Notes: generated by a model not told the origin, from the sequence alone. Positions 4,887 through 53,312 are shown, numbered from the stretch's first letter. The stretch is 53,316 nucleotides of DNA from Microcaldota archaeon (GCA_021792395.1 JAJYUR010000004.1:1-53316), one strand, 5' to 3'. A program made the numbers and translations.

Positions 4887-5192
4887 TCATTTTACGTATT
4901 CAGATATCAGAGGTATGCTTATCTCTCTGCCCATATACGCTTCAAACCCTATATACACGCCATATAACCATACCAGCAACGCTATTGCACTTCCGAATAA
5001 TGGAATTGCCATGATTGAAAAGAAGGACACGACAATTATTGATATGATGCCAAGAAGTATCGCTTGAAGCGAATGTTTCCTGAGTTTCTTATCATCTTTT
5101 CCGAATGCAAATAATATTATAATTCCAGAAAGCCATTCCAGAAGGTATGCAAATATATACAGTACCCGAACATCATCTTTTTTGCCCGCCAT
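4887..5192 (-). CDS. Small membrane protein (DUF4870/Tic20-like)
   Basis: MAGKKDDVRVLYIFAYLLEWLSGIIILFAFGKDDKKLRKHSLQAILLGI...; hydrophobic helices with a conserved-looking R-x-HS-x-QA; ORF-track extension to 5291 judged spurious. Confidence 0.6.
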   Translation of the reverse strand: MAGKKDDVRVLYIFAYLLEWLSGIIILFAFGKDDKKLRKHSLQAILLGIISIIVVSFFSIMAIPLFGSAIALLVWLYGVYIGFEAYMGREISIPLISEYVK

Positions 5193-5282
5193 TTTATCAA
5201 AAATAATTAGGCATTTATGCTTAAATACTATGCACACTATTTTTATTGGTAACTTAAAAAGCAGTAGATCGATGGTGGAATT

Positions 5283-6578
5283 ATAACGCAAAGTTCACAA
5301 AACGGCCATAAATGGATATATGCCACATTTCCTGGAAGCATAGCATACGGTCCGGTATCGACAATTGTTATCCTGTACATACTCAGCATAGGAGGCAACG
5401 TGATAGATGCGTCATTTGCAATAACGTTCGGAAGTGCGATTGCGATACCTGCAGCATACTTCTGGGGACGCGTGGTTGATAAGTTCAACAACAAGAAAAG
5501 CATGATAATACTCTCTTATGCGGGGCTTGCATTCTTCCTTGCAATGATGTTCTTTACGGGGAACATACTTTTTGTCATACTGCTCTACGGTGCGCTGTCA
5601 TTTGTGATAGGTGCAAATGCTACTCCGCTCAACATGCTGGTCATGGAGAATTCTCCTGAAGACCAGTGGTCTGCGATTTTCTCCAAGTTTCAGTTTATAG
5701 TAAGCCTTGGAGGAGGTATGGGATTCGCCCTTTCAACCGCTTTGCTGGGATTTGTCTCAATAAGATTTCTGCCTCTAATGTTTGGACTTGTTGCAATACC
5801 CTCGATAGTAATGAGTATGATATTGATATACGAGCCAAGGCGTACACTTCCTAGAAGGTTGATGCTTTCCAATATACACTCGTTTATAACAAGGATAATA
5901 ATGCAGCCTGTGCTCCTTGTCTCCGCACCCAAGATATCGGTTTTCAAGATAATATTCAATATAGGCACCAAGATGCACAAGCCGAAATCCTACCTCGGCG
6001 CCCTTTATCTGGCAATATTTGCCTTCTTCATCAGCAGCGGGCTCTTTAATACTGCCTATCCCGTAGGGCTTAAGGAGATAGGGCTTTCAGAGTTCACAAT
6101 ATTCCTGATAATAACGATAGGTATATTCATACAGGTTTTCACGTTTGCTTACTTCGGCAACTACGTTGCGAAAAGAATAAAGACGCGCATGCTGCCCAAT
6201 GCCATACTCCTGCGTGGAGGATCGTACATAGCAATTGCATTCATATTCCTCACGTTCACCAAATTTTCAGGATTTGTAATGCTAAATATCGTGCTGTATG
6301 CAATAGGGGCTGGACTTGCATACTCATTGTATTATACTGCATCCAATACGCTGGTTTTCAAAGCTATAGGGACAGAGCATAGAGCCAGCAAGCTTGGGAT
6401 ATATACCTCTTTGATTAGTGTATCTTTTCTAGTTGGCTCATTGCTGGCAGGATACATATCCTATTACTTAGGATATTCTGCCAGCTTTGTAGTTGCGGGA
6501 TTGCTGTTGGTAGCGAGTGCTTTCATTTTTGAGAGTGCCAGCTCGAAACTTGATGTGAATGTAATTGATAAACAGTAG
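5283..6578 (+). CDS. MFS transporter; probable AUA start upstream of the track's GTG (5400)
   Basis: ~12 hydrophobic segments, GRVVDKFNNKK loop; in-frame upstream sequence ITQSSQNGHKWIYATFPGSIAYGPVSTIVILYILSIGG encodes the missing TM1; GGTG at 5274-5277 lies 5 nt before ATA 5283. Confidence 0.75.
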   Translation: MTQSSQNGHKWIYATFPGSIAYGPVSTIVILYILSIGGNVIDASFAITFGSAIAIPAAYFWGRVVDKFNNKKSMIILSYAGLAFFLAMMFFTGNILFVILLYGALSFVIGANATPLNMLVMENSPEDQWSAIFSKFQFIVSLGGGMGFALSTALLGFVSIRFLPLMFGLVAIPSIVMSMILIYEPRRTLPRRLMLSNIHSFITRIIMQPVLLVSAPKISVFKIIFNIGTKMHKPKSYLGALYLAIFAFFISSGLFNTAYPVGLKEIGLSEFTIFLIITIGIFIQVFTFAYFGNYVAKRIKTRMLPNAILLRGGSYIAIAFIFLTFTKFSGFVMLNIVLYAIGAGLAYSLYYTASNTLVFKAIGTEHRASKLGIYTSLISVSFLVGSLLAGYISYYLGYSASFVVAGLLLVASAFIFESASSKLDVNVIDKQ

Positions 6579-7396: not shown

Positions 7397-8074
7397 TCAT
7401 GTCCTTAGCATCTTTTCTAAATCAGCGTGCATCGAACTTACATATCTAGGGTTTTCGTTGGCCAAGGCATCATGTGAAAGACGCCAAAACTTTTCAGGAT
7501 TGGTGAAATGGTGCAAGAGGATCGGCTTTATCATGTTTGCATACTTGTCATTGTACTCCCCATCAGGTTCTGAAAGCCATAATGAGTAAAGCATTGCAAG
7601 TTGATGGATGTATGAAGGCACAAGCACTTTAGAATTGTCTATAGTTATCAGCTTTGAATAAAACAAAAGCTCATTCGTGCTCACGCCTAGAAATGAATGG
7701 TTGTCAATTATTGCATTTTCACCGATTATTCCCTTAAGTGATTCGTTTACTACACTGTATTGCTCATGCTTTAGGCCTATTTCTATGGTTATTGAATTTA
7801 TACTGTCATATAACTTTATGAACCTGCTTCTTACCTCTTCTACATGGAAACCCATCTGGTTGGCCTTTTGGGTGTCTACCTTTATCATCTTGCCGTTAGG
7901 TATCATGCACGATAATGTGTCTGTTTTCACTTCAGGGTTGCAGCAGAAGCTGCTTGCTGCATCTGCATATGAGAGCATTATTGGATTTCCAAAAACATAT
8001 TTAGCGCGCTTATATGAATTTGCAAACGCCTTCGCAGAATAAGGTATTTCCTGATTTTCAAGTTGCTTCTCCAT
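7397..8074 (-). CDS. Hypothetical protein
   Basis: Long ORF, likely start MEKQLENQ; no recognised motif. Confidence 0.5.
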   Translation of the reverse strand: MEKQLENQEIPYSAKAFANSYKRAKYVFGNPIMLSYADAASSFCCNPEVKTDTLSCMIPNGKMIKVDTQKANQMGFHVEEVRSRFIKLYDSINSITIEIGLKHEQYSVVNESLKGIIGENAIIDNHSFLGVSTNELLFYSKLITIDNSKVLVPSYIHQLAMLYSLWLSEPDGEYNDKYANMIKPILLHHFTNPEKFWRLSHDALANENPRYVSSMHADLEKMLRT

Positions 8075-8196
8075 AGAGATCAAATTTTTATCAAGATGGA
8101 GATATTTATTAATTGTGTTTATTTTGGCACTTAGCCACTAGATGCAGCAATAAAAGGAATTTTAGTTATTTAGTGGGCAAGATTAAGTGTGGTCCA

Positions 8197-8601
8197 ATGA
8201 AAGAATTTGTATATCATGAAGTGGTAAAGGTTTATGATACAGATTATCAAGGCATTGCACATTATGCCTCATATTACAGGTTTTTTACAGATTCGATTGA
8301 TGCCTTCAACGCAAAGTTGCTTGGCAAGGACTCAAAGGAATTAGTTGAGGGTAACAAGTGGTTCGTCGTTGCGGAATCAGAGGCAAAATACCGAAAGCCG
8401 CTTAAGATAGGGGATAATATAATGATATCCGTAAGTGCTAAAGCGTTATCTCGAAAAGCGATAGAATATGCACTCTTGATAAAGCGGAATCCTGGAGACG
8501 AAACCACTACAGAGGGGCGTCTGGTGCTCGTATGCATAGACAGGAATACATTCAGGCCTGCAGACATGCATGAGGGGATGTTCAATCTGCTTGATTCCTA
8601 G
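8197..8601 (+). CDS. Acyl-CoA thioesterase, 4HBT hotdog-fold family
   Basis: VKVYDTDYQGIAHYASYYRFFTDSIDAF matches the 4HBT active-site region; start at ATG 8197 preferred over the track start at 8113. Confidence 0.8.
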   Translation: MKEFVYHEVVKVYDTDYQGIAHYASYYRFFTDSIDAFNAKLLGKDSKELVEGNKWFVVAESEAKYRKPLKIGDNIMISVSAKALSRKAIEYALLIKRNPGDETTTEGRLVLVCIDRNTFRPADMHEGMFNLLDS

Positions 8602-8734
8602 GCTTCTAGTATATTGAAAAAACTTTTCAGTAAGCTAAATCTTTCGATGTTTTTATAAGTAAAAACCGAACAAAAACCTAACGGTCCCAAATCCTTAATA
8701 TACCTTAAACTCGAACATATGATTAGGTGTAGCA

Positions 8735-19015: not shown

Positions 19016-19825
19016 ATGGCGGTAATCGCAAAACAGATGACTTCTGGGGACGAATCAAAATATAAAACGCTGGTAGAGTTGGCAGATGCACATTGCCACC
19101 TATATGCCTTTGATGGCAGCGCGACAGCAGACGCGATTGCTAAGGGAGTAGCGACCATGATAAGCAATGGGGTCGATACCAAATCAAACCTTAAGACGCT
19201 TGAGATATCTGACGGCAGGCATGTATTCCCTGCATTGGGCATACACCCTGATTATGCAGAAAACATAAGCGACGATGAGATAGAATATAATATACGCCTG
19301 ATAAGGGAGAATAAGAATATTGTTAAATCCATAGGCGAAATAGGCCTTGATTTTGCACATGCACATGGGGTTAATAGCATAGAAAAGCAGATGGCACTGT
19401 TTGAAACATTCATAGACCTTTCAAATGAACTTAACCTGCCAATAAGCGTACATTCTAGGAATGCGATGCCGCAGGTACTGCACATACTTAATGAAAAGGG
19501 TGCAAATGCGGTGCATCTGCATTTCTTTGAGGGCAGTGCAGATGATGCAATTGAAGCAGCGCGGCGTGGCTATATGATGTCTATACCTCCCTTAAAATCA
19601 GGGTCCAGGATATCGGCAATAAAAGCCGTGCCAATAGGGAACCTGATGGCTGAAACGGATTCGCCAACTGCAAATTCGACGCCTTCTGATGTCGATAAGG
19701 CGGTGAATATTATAGCAGACGCCAAAGGGATTAGGTATGAGGATGCAGCGCGCGCATTAACTGAAAATACAAAAAGGTTCTTTAATATTAGCACCGCTAA
19801 GTTTATGCGCAATGCGGGCCCGTAG
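19016..19825 (+). CDS. TatD-family metal-dependent hydrolase/DNase
   Basis: ADAHCHLYAF, ALGIHPDYAE, SIGEIGLDFAH, LPISVHSRNA, LMAETDSP; start at ATG 19016, track extension to 18740 rejected. Confidence 0.88.
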   Translation: MAVIAKQMTSGDESKYKTLVELADAHCHLYAFDGSATADAIAKGVATMISNGVDTKSNLKTLEISDGRHVFPALGIHPDYAENISDDEIEYNIRLIRENKNIVKSIGEIGLDFAHAHGVNSIEKQMALFETFIDLSNELNLPISVHSRNAMPQVLHILNEKGANAVHLHFFEGSADDAIEAARRGYMMSIPPLKSGSRISAIKAVPIGNLMAETDSPTANSTPSDVDKAVNIIADAKGIRYEDAARALTENTKRFFNISTAKFMRNAGP

Positions 19826-19926
19826 CTCAGCTTGGACAGAGCAACAGCCTTCTAAGCTGATGGTCGCGGGTTCAAAATAGGGTATTACACGTTTATAGCT
19901 TTGTGAAAATCCCGCCGGGCCCGCCA
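19816..19926 (+). tRNA. tRNA-Arg (anticodon UCU) with 33-nt BHB intron (19877-19909) in the T-loop (59/60); encoded CCA
   Basis: Acceptor GGGCCCG/CGGGCCC, discriminator G plus CCA; anticodon loop CTTCTAA; T-arm GCGGG-TTCAAA[intron]T-CCCGC; BHB UUCA-AA^A ... UGAA-AA^U. Confidence 0.9.
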
Positions 19927-36644: not shown

Positions 36645-36992
36645 TTACAAGATGTATTTAGAAATTAAAGTTTGTGACATCCTCTCCCAACTGAAGGTTG
36701 AGAGCTTCCTTCTGAAGAAATGCCTGTAAGCATCGGATGCCCTTTTTGAGACATTCTGAAGGACCTGAGAATGCAATTCTGCAAACTCTGGCTTTTCCTT
36801 TTTTATCTGCATAATCCATACATTCATTCTGTATTCAGTGAGGGTTTTGCCTGTTTCTTTGTAATACGTTTTTGATTTCTCTATGAGGAGGTTGTAGATT
36901 TCCTTTGCAAGGAACATCTGCCTGTTAAGTGTTTCCTTCTGCACCTTTGAAGGATATGCACGATATTTATATGCAGTTTTCATGGCGACCAT
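36645..36992 (-). pseudogene. tnpB: Truncated TnpB (OrfB) N-terminus, IS200/IS605-type remnant
   Basis: MKTAYKYRAYPSKVQKETLNRQMFLAKEIYNLLIEKSKTYYKETGKTLTEYRMNVWI: OrfB N-terminal HTH region; RuvC and zinc-finger portions missing. Confidence 0.75.
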
Positions 36993-37786: not shown

Positions 37787-38380
37787 TTATTTGGCAGGTA
37801 AACCTGCAGAGGGGTTCGCCTTGCTTCTGGCATTGCGCCTAACGCCGTACTTTCTGCGCATGAAATCTTGCCCTTCCTTGTTGCCAGACTTTTTGAAGTC
37901 CTCAGCAGTCTCCGCCTCTTCGTAGTCGAAGATGACCCACGTATTGTTGTCCAGCGTTTTGCTGCAGAAATCCGGCAGTATGATTGAGCGGGGTTTGCGG
38001 AGCATGGTTGCGGTCGCTACGTTAGGCGTTGATTTCCTTACCTCGGATAATACCGCATTAAGCGTCTTCCCAGTATCGGCAATGTCGTCGGCGATGAGTA
38101 TATACTTACCGTTGGGCCATGACTTAGGCACTGCTTCCATTCCTTCCAGATGTACCGCGTCCATCATCTTGTTTACTTCTGAATAATGACTTGCTCTTAT
38201 GCCATATAATCTGCTGACGCCAAAATAGTCGCTCAGCAGGCGCCCGAACACCATGCCACCGCGCTCTATGTATATTATAGCTTCAGGGGTGCCATACTTT
38301 TGCGCGAACGACAGTGCTATCGTCTTGCTCATGCTTTGCATCTCTTCGAAGCTTATCCTTACGTATCTCGATTTTTCCGT
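37787..38380 (-). CDS. Phosphoribosyltransferase (Gpt/purine-PRT-like), probable ACG start upstream of the first ATG (38341)
   Basis: PRPP loop YILIADDIADTGKTL; IERGGMVFGRLLSDYFGVSRLYG; upstream in-frame TEKSRYVRISFEEMQSMSK aligns with the paralogous PRT domain of the neighbouring ECF gene. Confidence 0.8.
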   Translation of the reverse strand, partial: TEKSRYVRISFEEMQSMSKTIALSFAQKYGTPEAIIYIERGGMVFGRLLSDYFGVSRLYGIRASHYSEVNKMMDAVHLEGMEAVPKSWPNGKYILIADDIADTGKTLNAVLSEVRKSTPNVATATMLRKPRSIILPDFCSKTLDNNTWVIFDYEEAETAEDFKKSGNKEGQDFMRRKYGVRRNARSKANPSAGLPAK

Positions 38381-38385
38381 TTACA

Positions 38386-40683
38386 TCACCTGAAATTTTC
38401 TTTTATGAATTTCATGCCAGCATGGTTATTGTCATGCTGAAAACCCCTGTATGCTTCCTCCTTTTCATAATCAAATATTATCCAGCTATCCTTACCTGCC
38501 ATGGCGCCATAGAAATCCGGCCTGAAGGATGAGCCTTCCTTGCATAGCAGCGCAACGGTCACGAGCTTTCTAGAAATAGGCGATAGCCTGCTCGATACTG
38601 CAGCCATCGTCTTTCCGGTATCTATTATATCGTCCACCAGCAGTACATATCCGTTGTTTTCAGGTATCTCCCTTGGACTGCTGACATAGACACCTTTTGA
38701 GGGAAGCCCATATTCATTATAATAGCTGGCCTTTATCCCATACACTTTGCTGACACCCAGATAGTCGCTCAGCAGGCGCCCGAACACCATGCCTCCTCTT
38801 TGCACATACACTATTGCGCCTGGAACTCCGTGCTTGGATCTTATGGCAGATGCTATGCTTTTTGCATGCATTCGCATTGCGCCAAAATCCATGCGCTTGT
38901 ATTTTGTCTTCAAACCACTAAAGCTGAAAAAATCGTTCAAATCAGACGCGGTAAGCAGTATATTGTTCAGCATGCCTATCCTTTTGAGCTCTTTTGAAAG
39001 TTTTACAGACTGTGGAGCAACGAGCGACGCCTTGGATAGCAATGCATCATTCTCAAATAGGTTTACAGTGCTGCCGTCGTATATTATATGGCCTGCATTC
39101 ATGACTATGGACCGCTTGCAGTATTCTGCTACAAGGCGCATATCGTGCGTTATTACAAATATGGTCTTTCCGGCATCGTTCATGCCTTTGAGAAGCTCCA
39201 TTATTTCCTTTGCCATAGTATAGTCTTGACCAGTAGTTGGCTCGTCGACTATCAGTATTTCGGGTTCCATTGCAAGTACGCTTGCAACTGCAAGCCTTCG
39301 CTTTTGGCCCTTGCCCAGAAAGAGAGGATCTTCCGATGCCTTGCTCTCGAGGCCGACGTTTTTCAGCACCTTATTCACCCTTATATTTATTTCTTCGGCA
39401 GGCATGGCCATGTTCTTCAGACCATACGAGACCTCAGAATATACGCTACGGTTGAATATTTGATGGTCTGGATTTTGGAATATATAGCCCACTTTGAACG
39501 GCATCAGAGCCCTGTTCTTGGCGGCATGCAAATCCATGCCCATTACGCTTACATCTCCTTTGAACGAACCTTCTATGCCGCTTATCACTTTAGACAGCGT
39601 ACTTTTACCTGAGCCGTTCTGGCCCACCAAGGCTACGAATTCGCCTTTCGCTATCTTGAATGATATGGAATCCAGCGCATGCGTTCCATCCCCATAGCTG
39701 AAGTCCAAGTCCTTTACAGATATAAGCTCTTTTGACGGCTCCTCGATAGCTTCAATCGCAGGTTGGATTGCCCTTTCGTCTTTTATTTTAAGCAGCCTCG
39801 CATGCGCCACGAACGATTCTATAGTCAGGTATGTCCTGGTTCCCTTGCCCATCTTGACGTCAGTCAATTCCGGCGCGTATATATTGTGTTTTTCGACAAG
39901 TTGCTTGTCGGAATATATATTTTCCGGGGTGCCTACCGCGACTATGCAGCCTTTATCCATTACCGCAATCCTGTCGGCAAATCTCTGCATTATTTCAGGG
40001 TTGTGCTCCACAAGTATGACTGTAAGCTTGTGTTCTTCCTTTATGCGCTCTATTGCGTCTATAACTTCCATCTTCCCGGCGGGATCTAAATCGGATGTAG
40101 GCTCGTCAAGTATCAGTACCTTCGGCCGCATGGCTATGAAGCTGGCTATTATAAGCCGCTGCTTCTGACCGCCTGAAAGCTCTGCAGGGTGTATGCGCTC
40201 TGAATCTGCATACAGGTCGTACATGCCCACCCTGCGAAGAGCCTCTTTTATCCTTGCATCTATTTCACCCGGAGGCAGCCCCATGAACTGAAGACCTAGG
40301 GAAAGCTCCTGCTTTACGCTCATCGTAAGAAACTGGCTTTCTGGATCCTGCATCACTATGCCGACGGTTGGGGCCATGGTCCCTCTGCCTATTATTATGT
40401 TCTTGCCGCTTTTCCTAACTACTGCGCTTACGGTATCGCTGAATACCTTTATGCTTCCGTCCATGAATTGTTTTGCGTCTTCATAAGACAAATGCATCTG
40501 ATGTGGTATCAACCCCGATATCGCAAAACAGAGGGTGGTCTTCCCCGATCCGCTTGGGCCGGTTATGCCGAAGAACTCATTCTCCTTTATTTGCAGGCTT
40601 ATCCCCTTCAGCGCAAATTCGTTTACACTGCCGGTAAATGTGGGATATCTCCAGTAGAATTTATTGACATTTATTGCGTCCAT
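38386..40683 (-). CDS. ECF transporter double ATPase (EcfA-EcfA') fused to a C-terminal phosphoribosyltransferase domain
   Basis: ATPase 1 GPSGSGKTTL / LSGGQKQRL / VLILDEPTSDLD; ATPase 2 GQNGSGKSTL / LGKGQKRRL / ILIVDEPTTGQD; PRT VQRGGMVFGRLLSDYLGVSKVYGIKAS and VLLVDDIIDTGKTMAAV. Confidence 0.9.
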   Translation of the reverse strand: MDAINVNKFYWRYPTFTGSVNEFALKGISLQIKENEFFGITGPSGSGKTTLCFAISGLIPHQMHLSYEDAKQFMDGSIKVFSDTVSAVVRKSGKNIIIGRGTMAPTVGIVMQDPESQFLTMSVKQELSLGLQFMGLPPGEIDARIKEALRRVGMYDLYADSERIHPAELSGGQKQRLIIASFIAMRPKVLILDEPTSDLDPAGKMEVIDAIERIKEEHKLTVILVEHNPEIMQRFADRIAVMDKGCIVAVGTPENIYSDKQLVEKHNIYAPELTDVKMGKGTRTYLTIESFVAHARLLKIKDERAIQPAIEAIEEPSKELISVKDLDFSYGDGTHALDSISFKIAKGEFVALVGQNGSGKSTLSKVISGIEGSFKGDVSVMGMDLHAAKNRALMPFKVGYIFQNPDHQIFNRSVYSEVSYGLKNMAMPAEEINIRVNKVLKNVGLESKASEDPLFLGKGQKRRLAVASVLAMEPEILIVDEPTTGQDYTMAKEIMELLKGMNDAGKTIFVITHDMRLVAEYCKRSIVMNAGHIIYDGSTVNLFENDALLSKASLVAPQSVKLSKELKRIGMLNNILLTASDLNDFFSFSGLKTKYKRMDFGAMRMHAKSIASAIRSKHGVPGAIVYVQRGGMVFGRLLSDYLGVSKVYGIKASYYNEYGLPSKGVYVSSPREIPENNGYVLLVDDIIDTGKTMAAVSSRLSPISRKLVTVALLCKEGSSFRPDFYGAMAGKDSWIIFDYEKEEAYRGFQHDNNHAGMKFIKENFR

Positions 40684-40687
40684 GATA

Positions 40688-41593
40688 TCAGCGCATTATC
40701 CCCAACATCAGTGTAAGATTGAACAGGTATGCTGAAAAAAGCACCGTGATCGACAATGCAATCATCGAAAAATCGTAGCGCGAAAAACCGCTTCCATTCC
40801 TGAATTCGGATATGCCTTTGCTCTTGCTGAAGCCTCTTGCTTCTAGCGCAGAACCCATGTCTACGGAACGCTTCAGCATGACTGCAGTTAAAGGTATTGA
40901 AAGCGATGCAAAGTTCCTTGCGTTCTTAACGATGTTCTTTCCCGAGCTTATGCTCGAACCCCGTGCGAATTGCGCATGGCGTATAGATTCAAAATCGCCC
41001 TGCATTATATGAAATGCGCGAAGGATGAACGATGAAAAGAAGACTGCTTTGAACGGAAGCTTGAGCTTGCTGAGTGCGCTTATGACATCGGAATCCCTTG
41101 TAGTCATCAGCACAAGGAGGGTAAGAAACGCCAGAGCAGCATATCCAAATACTTTTGTTACACCTATTTCCAACGAAAGCGTAGTTATGGTCAGAGGGAT
41201 ACTTAACGCCCTTAGGTTCACCAGCACCACGCTGCCAACCTGGTTGAATACTAGCCACCACAGAAGCATCACGAAAAGCGCAACTATTAATATGGCCAGG
41301 TAGCTTTTGACAAGATAGCGTATGACCCTTGCATCAGCCATGAAAAGCAGTACGGCCATGAGCATTATTCCTGAGAATATTATATCTGGAGTGCGCTCTG
41401 TTATTAGATGTATCACGGCCAGTGAGACCAGAATCAACACTATGAATTTTGTAAGTGCGTTGATGCGTGCAAATACTGAATTTGCCTTTGCATAGAATAG
41501 TATGGTGCGTATGTACTTCTTCTCGCCTTTGCGGTTTATTCTGGATTCTGCCTTAGGCTCGGCATGCGTTACTTTGCCATGTTTGCGCACCAT
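40688..41593 (-). CDS. ECF transporter T component (EcfT)
   Basis: Multi-pass protein with paired Ala-Arg-Gly motifs HAQFARGSS and [12 protein letters not shown]. Confidence 0.85.
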
Positions 41594-41612
41594 TACTTAT
41601 CACTGCAATTTA

Positions 41613-42278
41613 TTATGATATCCAGCCTTTTGTAAGAAGGCCGTATCTCTCCACTATCGGAGTCAGGTACTTACTCATGAAAGGCATCATCAGAAGGACT
41701 ATTGCATCCCCGGTTATCCATAAACCGGCACCCAGCCAATAGGCATGCACCGGGACGAAGCCCAGTACCGTAAGTATCCATACTCCCCACAGGCCACCGA
41801 TAATGTTGGTTATTCCCATGACCCACAATGCAAACCATGCTGCTGATTTCGGTTTTGACAGTATGTCCCTGCCAAATGGATCTACGTTCCGTTTTATCAG
41901 GTATCCCCTGTATAATAGGAATATCAGTATGGCAGGTATGAAATCCCCTACGCTAAAGCCCAATGCAGGCAGTATAGGCAAGCCAGTAAGCAGTCCTGCA
42001 CCAACTACGCTCCCAAGGAACGCGCCAAGGACGCCCCACATGCCCCACCATAACGTGAAAAGCACGAAGAATGGATATGCCCAGTATAGGAATCCTATCC
42101 CTGGGCCCACTACTGGCGTAGCTATAGTGCCGAGCCACGATAGCAGTATTACAACAGCTATCTGCACAGCGTATAAAGCGTATTGAGTGGAAGTTATATT
42201 CTTGTTCGGATTCCAGCGCAATCCGTACATCAAAGAAATAGGTCTAGTCTTGGCCTTTTCGGCTTTTTTGGCAGCCAT
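41613..42278 (-). CDS. Putative ECF transporter substrate-binding S component
   Basis: About six hydrophobic helices, adjacent to EcfT/EcfA; start MAAKKAEK after GGTG. Confidence 0.7.
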   Translation of the reverse strand: MAAKKAEKAKTRPISLMYGLRWNPNKNITSTQYALYAVQIAVVILLSWLGTIATPVVGPGIGFLYWAYPFFVLFTLWWGMWGVLGAFLGSVVGAGLLTGLPILPALGFSVGDFIPAILIFLLYRGYLIKRNVDPFGRDILSKPKSAAWFALWVMGITNIIGGLWGVWILTVLGFVPVHAYWLGAGLWITGDAIVLLMMPFMSKYLTPIVERYGLLTKGWIS

Positions 42279-42377
42279 TTGCACCCCCAGTAATAATTCT
42301 AGGGCAATCTTTAAATCGTTTTCCACTGGCGGTAAAGCTTTTATTGTTTGCCATCGATTTATATGTTTAGTGATGAG

Positions 42378-53186: not shown

Positions 53187-53312
53187 GCCAGGGTGGCAGA
53201 AACCGGTATTGCGCCGGTCTTGAGATTTTAAGTCATCAAGAGCTGATCAGTGATGCATAACAAGGCAACCGGTGCCCGTAAGGGCTTTAGGGTTCAAATC
53301 CCTACCCTGGCG
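53187..53312 (+). tRNA. tRNA-Ser (anticodon UGA) with 42-nt BHB intron (53225-53266) at canonical 37/38
   Basis: Acceptor GCCAGGG/CCCTGGC, discriminator G, long variable arm GCCC-GTAA-GGGC, T-arm TAGGG-TTCAAAT-CCCTA; anticodon loop CTTGAG[intron]A; BHB CUUG-AG^A ... CAAG-GC^A. Confidence 0.9.

Follow-up and report, generated by a model that had tools for sequence, protein, structure and literature searches.

Four consecutive genes on the minus strand of the window, by which we mean the whole 53,316-nucleotide stretch of DNA analysed here from a Microcaldota archaeon (JAJYUR010000004.1), encode the parts of an energy-coupling factor (ECF) transporter together with two phosphoribosyltransferases (PRTs), one of them fused to the transporter's ATPases. 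The first gene of the operon (41613-42326) encodes a 237-aa protein identified as a putative S component from its predicted fold and conservation. It is followed by the gene for a 301-aa EcfT of the CbiQ family, the transmembrane coupling subunit (40688-41593; PF02361, 71 bits against a cut-off of 25), by a gene for a 765-aa EcfA-EcfA-PRT fusion (38386-40683; Pfam and NCBIfam) and by a gene for a free 184-aa PRT of the same family as the fused one (37787-38341; open reading frame (ORF) call and Pfam). A preliminary description, made from the sequence alone, had proposed two ECF ATPase domains and a PRT in a single protein, with EcfT and a putative S component encoded upstream on the same strand. 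Each part of that layout was confirmed, the fusion by Pfam and NCBIfam matches above their cut-offs, EcfT by the CbiQ match and the S component by its predicted fold.

The window genome is fragmented (44 contigs, 88.7% complete), and the preliminary description had raised a frameshift or an assembly join as a possible origin of the fusion. The 765-aa ORF is, however, continuous, with neither a stop nor a frameshift inside it, and the S-T-A-A-PRT operon could be read in 14 genomes from three groups of archaea, namely the window's genus (three genomes), the genus Micrarchaeum (five, including the complete Ca. Micrarchaeum A_DKE) and Thermoplasmata-type archaea (six). The fusion is present on a complete chromosome (NZ_CP060530) and on a 1.96-Mb contig (genome G346). 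Identical architecture in 13 genomes besides the window's own excludes an assembly or annotation artefact, which we regard as vanishingly improbable. Among 196 genomes of the phylum that were searched, full-length copies turned up in six, one belonging to the same genus (92% identity) and five to a second genus of the family (50-52%). When 84,980 species genomes were scanned with the S component, aided by two short peptide patterns, only 20 loci were found, all in Micrarchaeota, Thermoplasmata-type archaea and Thermotogota-type bacteria; the count of 14 carriers comes from these 20 loci and a few more that were read.

ABC_tran matches the fusion protein twice (E 6e-54), and the ECF ATPase models TIGR04520/04521 exceed their cut-offs. 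Domain 1 (residues ~1-300; 39784-40683) was delimited with Pfam, NCBIfam and motif reading and has a canonical LSGGQ signature; domain 2 (residues ~318-585; 38929-39732), delimited with NCBIfam and motif reading, has LGKGQ instead. Walker A, Q-loop, Walker B and H-loop are present in both. The degenerate signature noted in the preliminary description is real but not peculiar to the fusion: L[GS][KR]G[QE] occurs in every relative, including forms that lack the PRT, so that it represents an old asymmetry of the transporter, and the idea that it arose as a consequence of the fusion could be discarded. A fold search with a model of the whole fusion protein returned only ABC ATPases among the matches listed and was therefore uninformative about the PRT. 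EcfT carries both Ala-Arg-Gly motifs (by inspection, ARG in QFARGSS and LEARGF) and is the single EcfT match across the genome.

The S component has no Pfam match, but the nine best Foldseek matches of its AlphaFold model (pLDDT 82, 20 sequences) in the PDB are all S components, with BioY, FolT and ThiT leading and RibU lower (best E 3e-3, probability 1.00), and the model has the six-helix S fold; such a search cannot discriminate between S substrates. This is the most conserved part of the operon (70-76% identity across Micrarchaeota and Thermotogota). An ECF module shared among several S components was considered and rejected, since neither a second EcfT nor a full-length S paralogue was found in the genome. 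A weak 15-bit S-like match falls on a 134-aa membrane ORF at 4887-5291, and none of ten other multi-helix proteins matched an S-component Pfam family, five of the ten matching no family at all. Distant S homologues (41-44%) occur on their own in Micrarchaeota that lack any EcfT (L068, L069 and L070, ~8000-8700). They adjoin genes for an NCS1 nucleobase permease, PNP, a 5'-deoxyadenosine deaminase-like protein, HutI and an RpiB-like protein, a context that, judged from these gene assignments, is one of purine nucleoside salvage.

The fused PRT domain (residues ~592-765; 38386-38910) matches Pribosyltran over residues 604-728 (46.7 bits against a cut-off of 26.3). The best matches of its profile in the PDB are purine PRTs throughout: Sulfolobus solfataricus GpT-2 (E 1e-27), a Pyrococcus horikoshii purine PRT and GpT-1, then HGPRTs and XGPRTs. 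The loop for phosphoribosyl pyrophosphate (PRPP), VLLVDDIIDTGKT (38608-38646), includes the catalytic Asp, and its Asp, Gly and Thr are invariant or nearly so in our alignment (A5). RGGM, the pyrophosphate-binding loop (38788-38799), is likewise invariant there, as are Lys 715 and Trp 734 of the base-binding stretch (38482-38541; K131 and W150 of the alignment), which align with KPWS and WIIFPW of GpT-2 and which we take, from established structures, to be the positions that hold the 6-oxopurine in XGPRT. All fused and free PRTs compared retain the catalytic Asp, the RGG loop and the Lys and Trp, and on the same structural grounds these conserved residues would presumably hold PRPP, pyrophosphate and the 6-oxopurine. 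On these features the fused PRT groups with the archaeal 6-oxopurine PRTs and is predicted to be catalytically active.

The free PRT downstream of the fusion exists as first described, but its "nearly identical" core is confined to the RGGMVFGRLLSD stretch; overall the two PRTs are 41% identical. Its frame is open up to 38380, with no standard start there. In two of the three genomes of the window's genus the gene's start codon is a GTG that shares nucleotides with the stop codon of the fusion; the same GTG in the window runs into an in-frame TAA (38342-38386), which necessarily puts the start of the free PRT further downstream. The fusion itself extends ~100 residues further in the genus Micrarchaeum and in two Thermoplasmata-type genomes (L065 and L095). 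Where analysed (L057:9453-12014, residues ~750-853, and relatives), the extension is a shortened second PRT that has lost the RGG motif and the PRPP loop, with significant similarity to the first half of PRTs (hhalign 97%, E 1e-10); the window's genus has its second PRT as the separate gene directly downstream. PRTs of this kind act as dimers or tetramers, and a transporter with one A-A chain carries one fused PRT. The extra copy, be it the degenerate second PRT of one lineage or the free PRT of the other, could thus be the oligomer partner of the fused domain.

The same transporter is found without a PRT in three Thermotogota-type bacteria, Athalassotoga saccharophila (complete genome), a metagenome-assembled genome (MAG) labelled 'Thermotoga sp.' and a related MAG, where it stops after the second ATPase. 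Identities to the window's proteins are 74-76% for S, 60-61% for T and 61-63% for A-A. In the A-A tree these three forms are sister to the window's genus (100/100), within the range of the PRT-bearing forms. The PRT tree separates the fused PRTs, with a one-clade constraint not rejected by the approximately unbiased (AU) test (p 0.154), and the PRT was either lost in the Thermotogota-type lineage or gained more than once. That relatives manage without the PRT, and that the AU test cannot separate one fusion event from several, would suit a chance joining of importer and enzyme that has no kinetic role and was kept after loss of a free enzyme. We consider this improbable, because the fusion persists across lineages, including Thermoplasmata-type genomes with other PF00156 genes (six matches each), and is kept beside a free PRT in the window's genus.

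Each of the three PRT-less operons is directly preceded by a purine riboswitch (RF00167; 84.6, 81.3 and 78.9 bits, cut-off 37), whose aptamer ends ~60 nt ahead of the S start codon. The core is GACTAC, and in the junction CTGACTACA position 74 is a C in all three; C74 distinguishes guanine-class riboswitches from those of the adenine class, which have U74 (PMC11477304), and by this residue the three riboswitches are assigned to the guanine class. The leader folds beyond chance (z -5.4), and its stem with a U-run behind it resembles the arrangement in switches that act by transcription termination. Purine handling by the transporter is thus supported independently of the PRT. These riboswitches bear directly on the proposal that the S component carries some other cargo, such as the 7-deazapurine preQ0, a nucleoside or a vitamin, and that the PRT is attached for a different reason. 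S components of known ECF transporters are vitamin binders, QueT/QrtT transport guanine-like queuosine precursors (PMC11130926) and the substrate of S cannot be read from the fold search. On the other hand, the riboswitch belongs to the purine family, guanine class, and to neither the preQ1 nor a vitamin class, a vitamin would not be a substrate for a 6-oxopurine PRT and the distant S homologues stand in a purine nucleoside salvage context; we judge such a cargo very unlikely. In particular, an S component that binds an unrelated vitamin, one of the outcomes that the preliminary description named as refuting its proposal, is unlikely given guanine-class riboswitches before the same operon in three bacteria. 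The cargo first proposed, a purine or pyrimidine base, can be retained as a purine and narrowed to a 6-oxopurine, most likely guanine, with hypoxanthine or xanthine possible.

Gene content points in the same direction. The Micrarchaeota carriers tested, including the window genome and the complete A_DKE, lack AIRS-family genes (PurM/PurL), PurA, GuaA and any real IMPDH, and a survey of Micrarchaeales found the purine pathway to be only partial (PMC12892359). The window genome has three PF00156 genes (the fused PRT, the free PRT and PRPP synthetase). A_DKE also has three, for adenine PRT (APRT), PRPP synthetase and the fusion, and the fused PRT is its only candidate 6-oxopurine PRT. Salvage by PRTs would therefore give A_DKE its GMP solely by way of guanine and the fused domain, barring import of nucleosides or nucleotides; adenine can presumably be converted to AMP through APRT. 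Among the bacteria, PurC is missing in all three Thermotogota carriers and present in 69 of 100 other Thermotogota genomes (hypergeometric p 0.034, uncorrected for relatedness). Athalassotoga has PurA and GuaA and shows no AIRS and no real IMPDH match, a gene content that oxopurine salvage would serve.

The chief rival explanation takes the cargo to be a purine base as well but makes the PRT a regulatory sensor of PRPP or purine nucleotide that gates the ATPases and matches uptake to demand. The PRT sits at the ATPase C-terminus, where other ABC importers such as MetN and ModC bear regulatory domains; PRT-fold sensors of PRPP exist, Bacillus subtilis PurR being one; and one lineage retains a shortened second PRT without the PRPP loop. 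A sensor is nevertheless hard to reconcile with the conservation of the catalytic Asp, RGG loop, Lys and Trp, or with the lack in the complete A_DKE of any other candidate 6-oxopurine PRT and of any other GMP-forming enzyme among those tested, and we hold it to be unlikely, although a serious contender.

Taken together, the conserved fusion, the guanine-class riboswitch, the purine-PRT membership and the missing purine genes support the import-and-trap system suggested in the preliminary description. We propose, with a probability of roughly 0.7, that the operon encodes a dedicated ECF importer for 6-oxopurines whose fused ATPase pair carries a purine PRT. In ECF uptake the S component topples, driven by ATPases bound to EcfT. 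These ATPases face the cytosol, so that a PRT attached C-terminally to the second of them would lie close to the exit side. The S component would capture the base outside, topple and release it inside, driven through EcfT by the two ATPase domains, and the tethered PRT would then couple the base to PRPP, forming GMP (or IMP or XMP). The nucleotide could not exit, and conversion of the base would maintain the inward gradient; the benefit of tethering would probably be local capture. A stronger form of the proposal is vectorial phosphoribosylation, in which the base would go straight from the toppling S component to the tethered PRT, emerge in the cytosol as nucleotide and so let the reaction with PRPP assist uptake by pulling on it; this is a speculative possibility that we think rather doubtful. 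If true, it would amount to ATP- and PRPP-driven group translocation within the ECF class.

Several observations weigh against import-and-trap. The fused PRT falls under the NCBIfam equivalog cut-offs for named XPRT and HPRT (PRK09177 XPRT, 44.5 bits against 138), and NCBIfam assigns it to the superfamily only. No riboswitch was found in the window or in the other archaeal loci, the riboswitch being confined to the bacterial PRT-less operons. AIRS-family, PurA and IMPDH genes are present in the three Thermoplasmata carriers tested, so that the tether is not restricted to auxotrophs, and the PurC correlation rests on three related genomes. Finally, no free APRT was found in the window's genus, which leaves the source of AMP in the window genome unexplained; in that genus a 467-aa protein (L099:3161-4564) has a C-terminal APRT domain behind an apparent methyltransferase domain.

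Around the fusion in other genomes, a CTP synthase gene lies directly 3' of it in a Thermoplasmata-type locus (L095:10996-12645) and a thymidine kinase gene is convergent with it in the Micrarchaeum genus (L057:12011-12562). Other Micrarchaeota (L037:1680-6025 and L038:1469-5802) encode a PRT of the same family fused behind another domain, nucleotidyltransferase-like in L038, with a partial PRT copy after it. The operon also includes genes for an AA_permease_2-type transporter and a metallophosphoesterase and may represent a second pairing of permease and PRT. Elsewhere in the window, a short ORF at 36645-36992 resembles, by eye, the N-terminal region of a TnpB of the IS605 type. ARAGORN called a tRNA at 2721-2810 but neither of two Rfam tRNA matches with odd lengths (19816-19874, 59 nt; 53187-53312, 126 nt), which are perhaps tRNAs with introns or unusual arms.

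The preliminary description knew of no EcfA-EcfA-PRT fusion, and our literature search, with most subscription journals outside its coverage, likewise found no description of such a fusion or of a purine-specific or nucleobase ECF transporter. A purine-base ECF transporter looks new as a substrate class for this vitamin-uptake family, as does a covalent link between the motor of an importer and an enzyme acting on the cargo. The system could provide a concrete route of guanine nucleotide supply in host-dependent Micrarchaeota that lack the purine-synthesis genes tested. Besides host-dependent Micrarchaeota, the fusion is carried by some acid-loving Thermoplasmata. The Athalassotoga transporter offers a natural PRT-less control.

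Among known systems, the operon resembles the group I (dedicated) ECF transporters CbiMNQO and BioMNY in that S, T and two ATPase domains are encoded together, the S component has the family's fold, T is of the CbiQ type and the genome has a single EcfT. It differs in that a PRT is joined to the ATPases, which are themselves fused, and in its predicted cargo, a purine base in place of a vitamin or metal. QueT/QrtT, the ECF transporters for queuosine precursors (PMC11130926), also handle a guanine-like base, but theirs is a 7-deazaguanine cargo with no enzyme attached, and the riboswitch found here is of the guanine rather than the preQ1 class. S. solfataricus GpT-1 and GpT-2 (PDB 4trb and 4z1o), among the closest solved relatives of the fused PRT, have the PRPP loop and the base-binding Lys and Trp in common with it, yet are free soluble enzymes. 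Units of the xpt-pbuX type in Firmicutes share the guanine-class riboswitch and the functional pairing of transporter and PRT, but with a secondary permease, a separate PRT and no covalent link. Purine 'group translocation' was proposed for Escherichia coli membrane vesicles in the 1970s, and we know of no transporter-PRT fusion in that system. Uptake would be coupled to phosphoribosylation here as it was there, but within one polypeptide, and the old question becomes testable on one defined complex.

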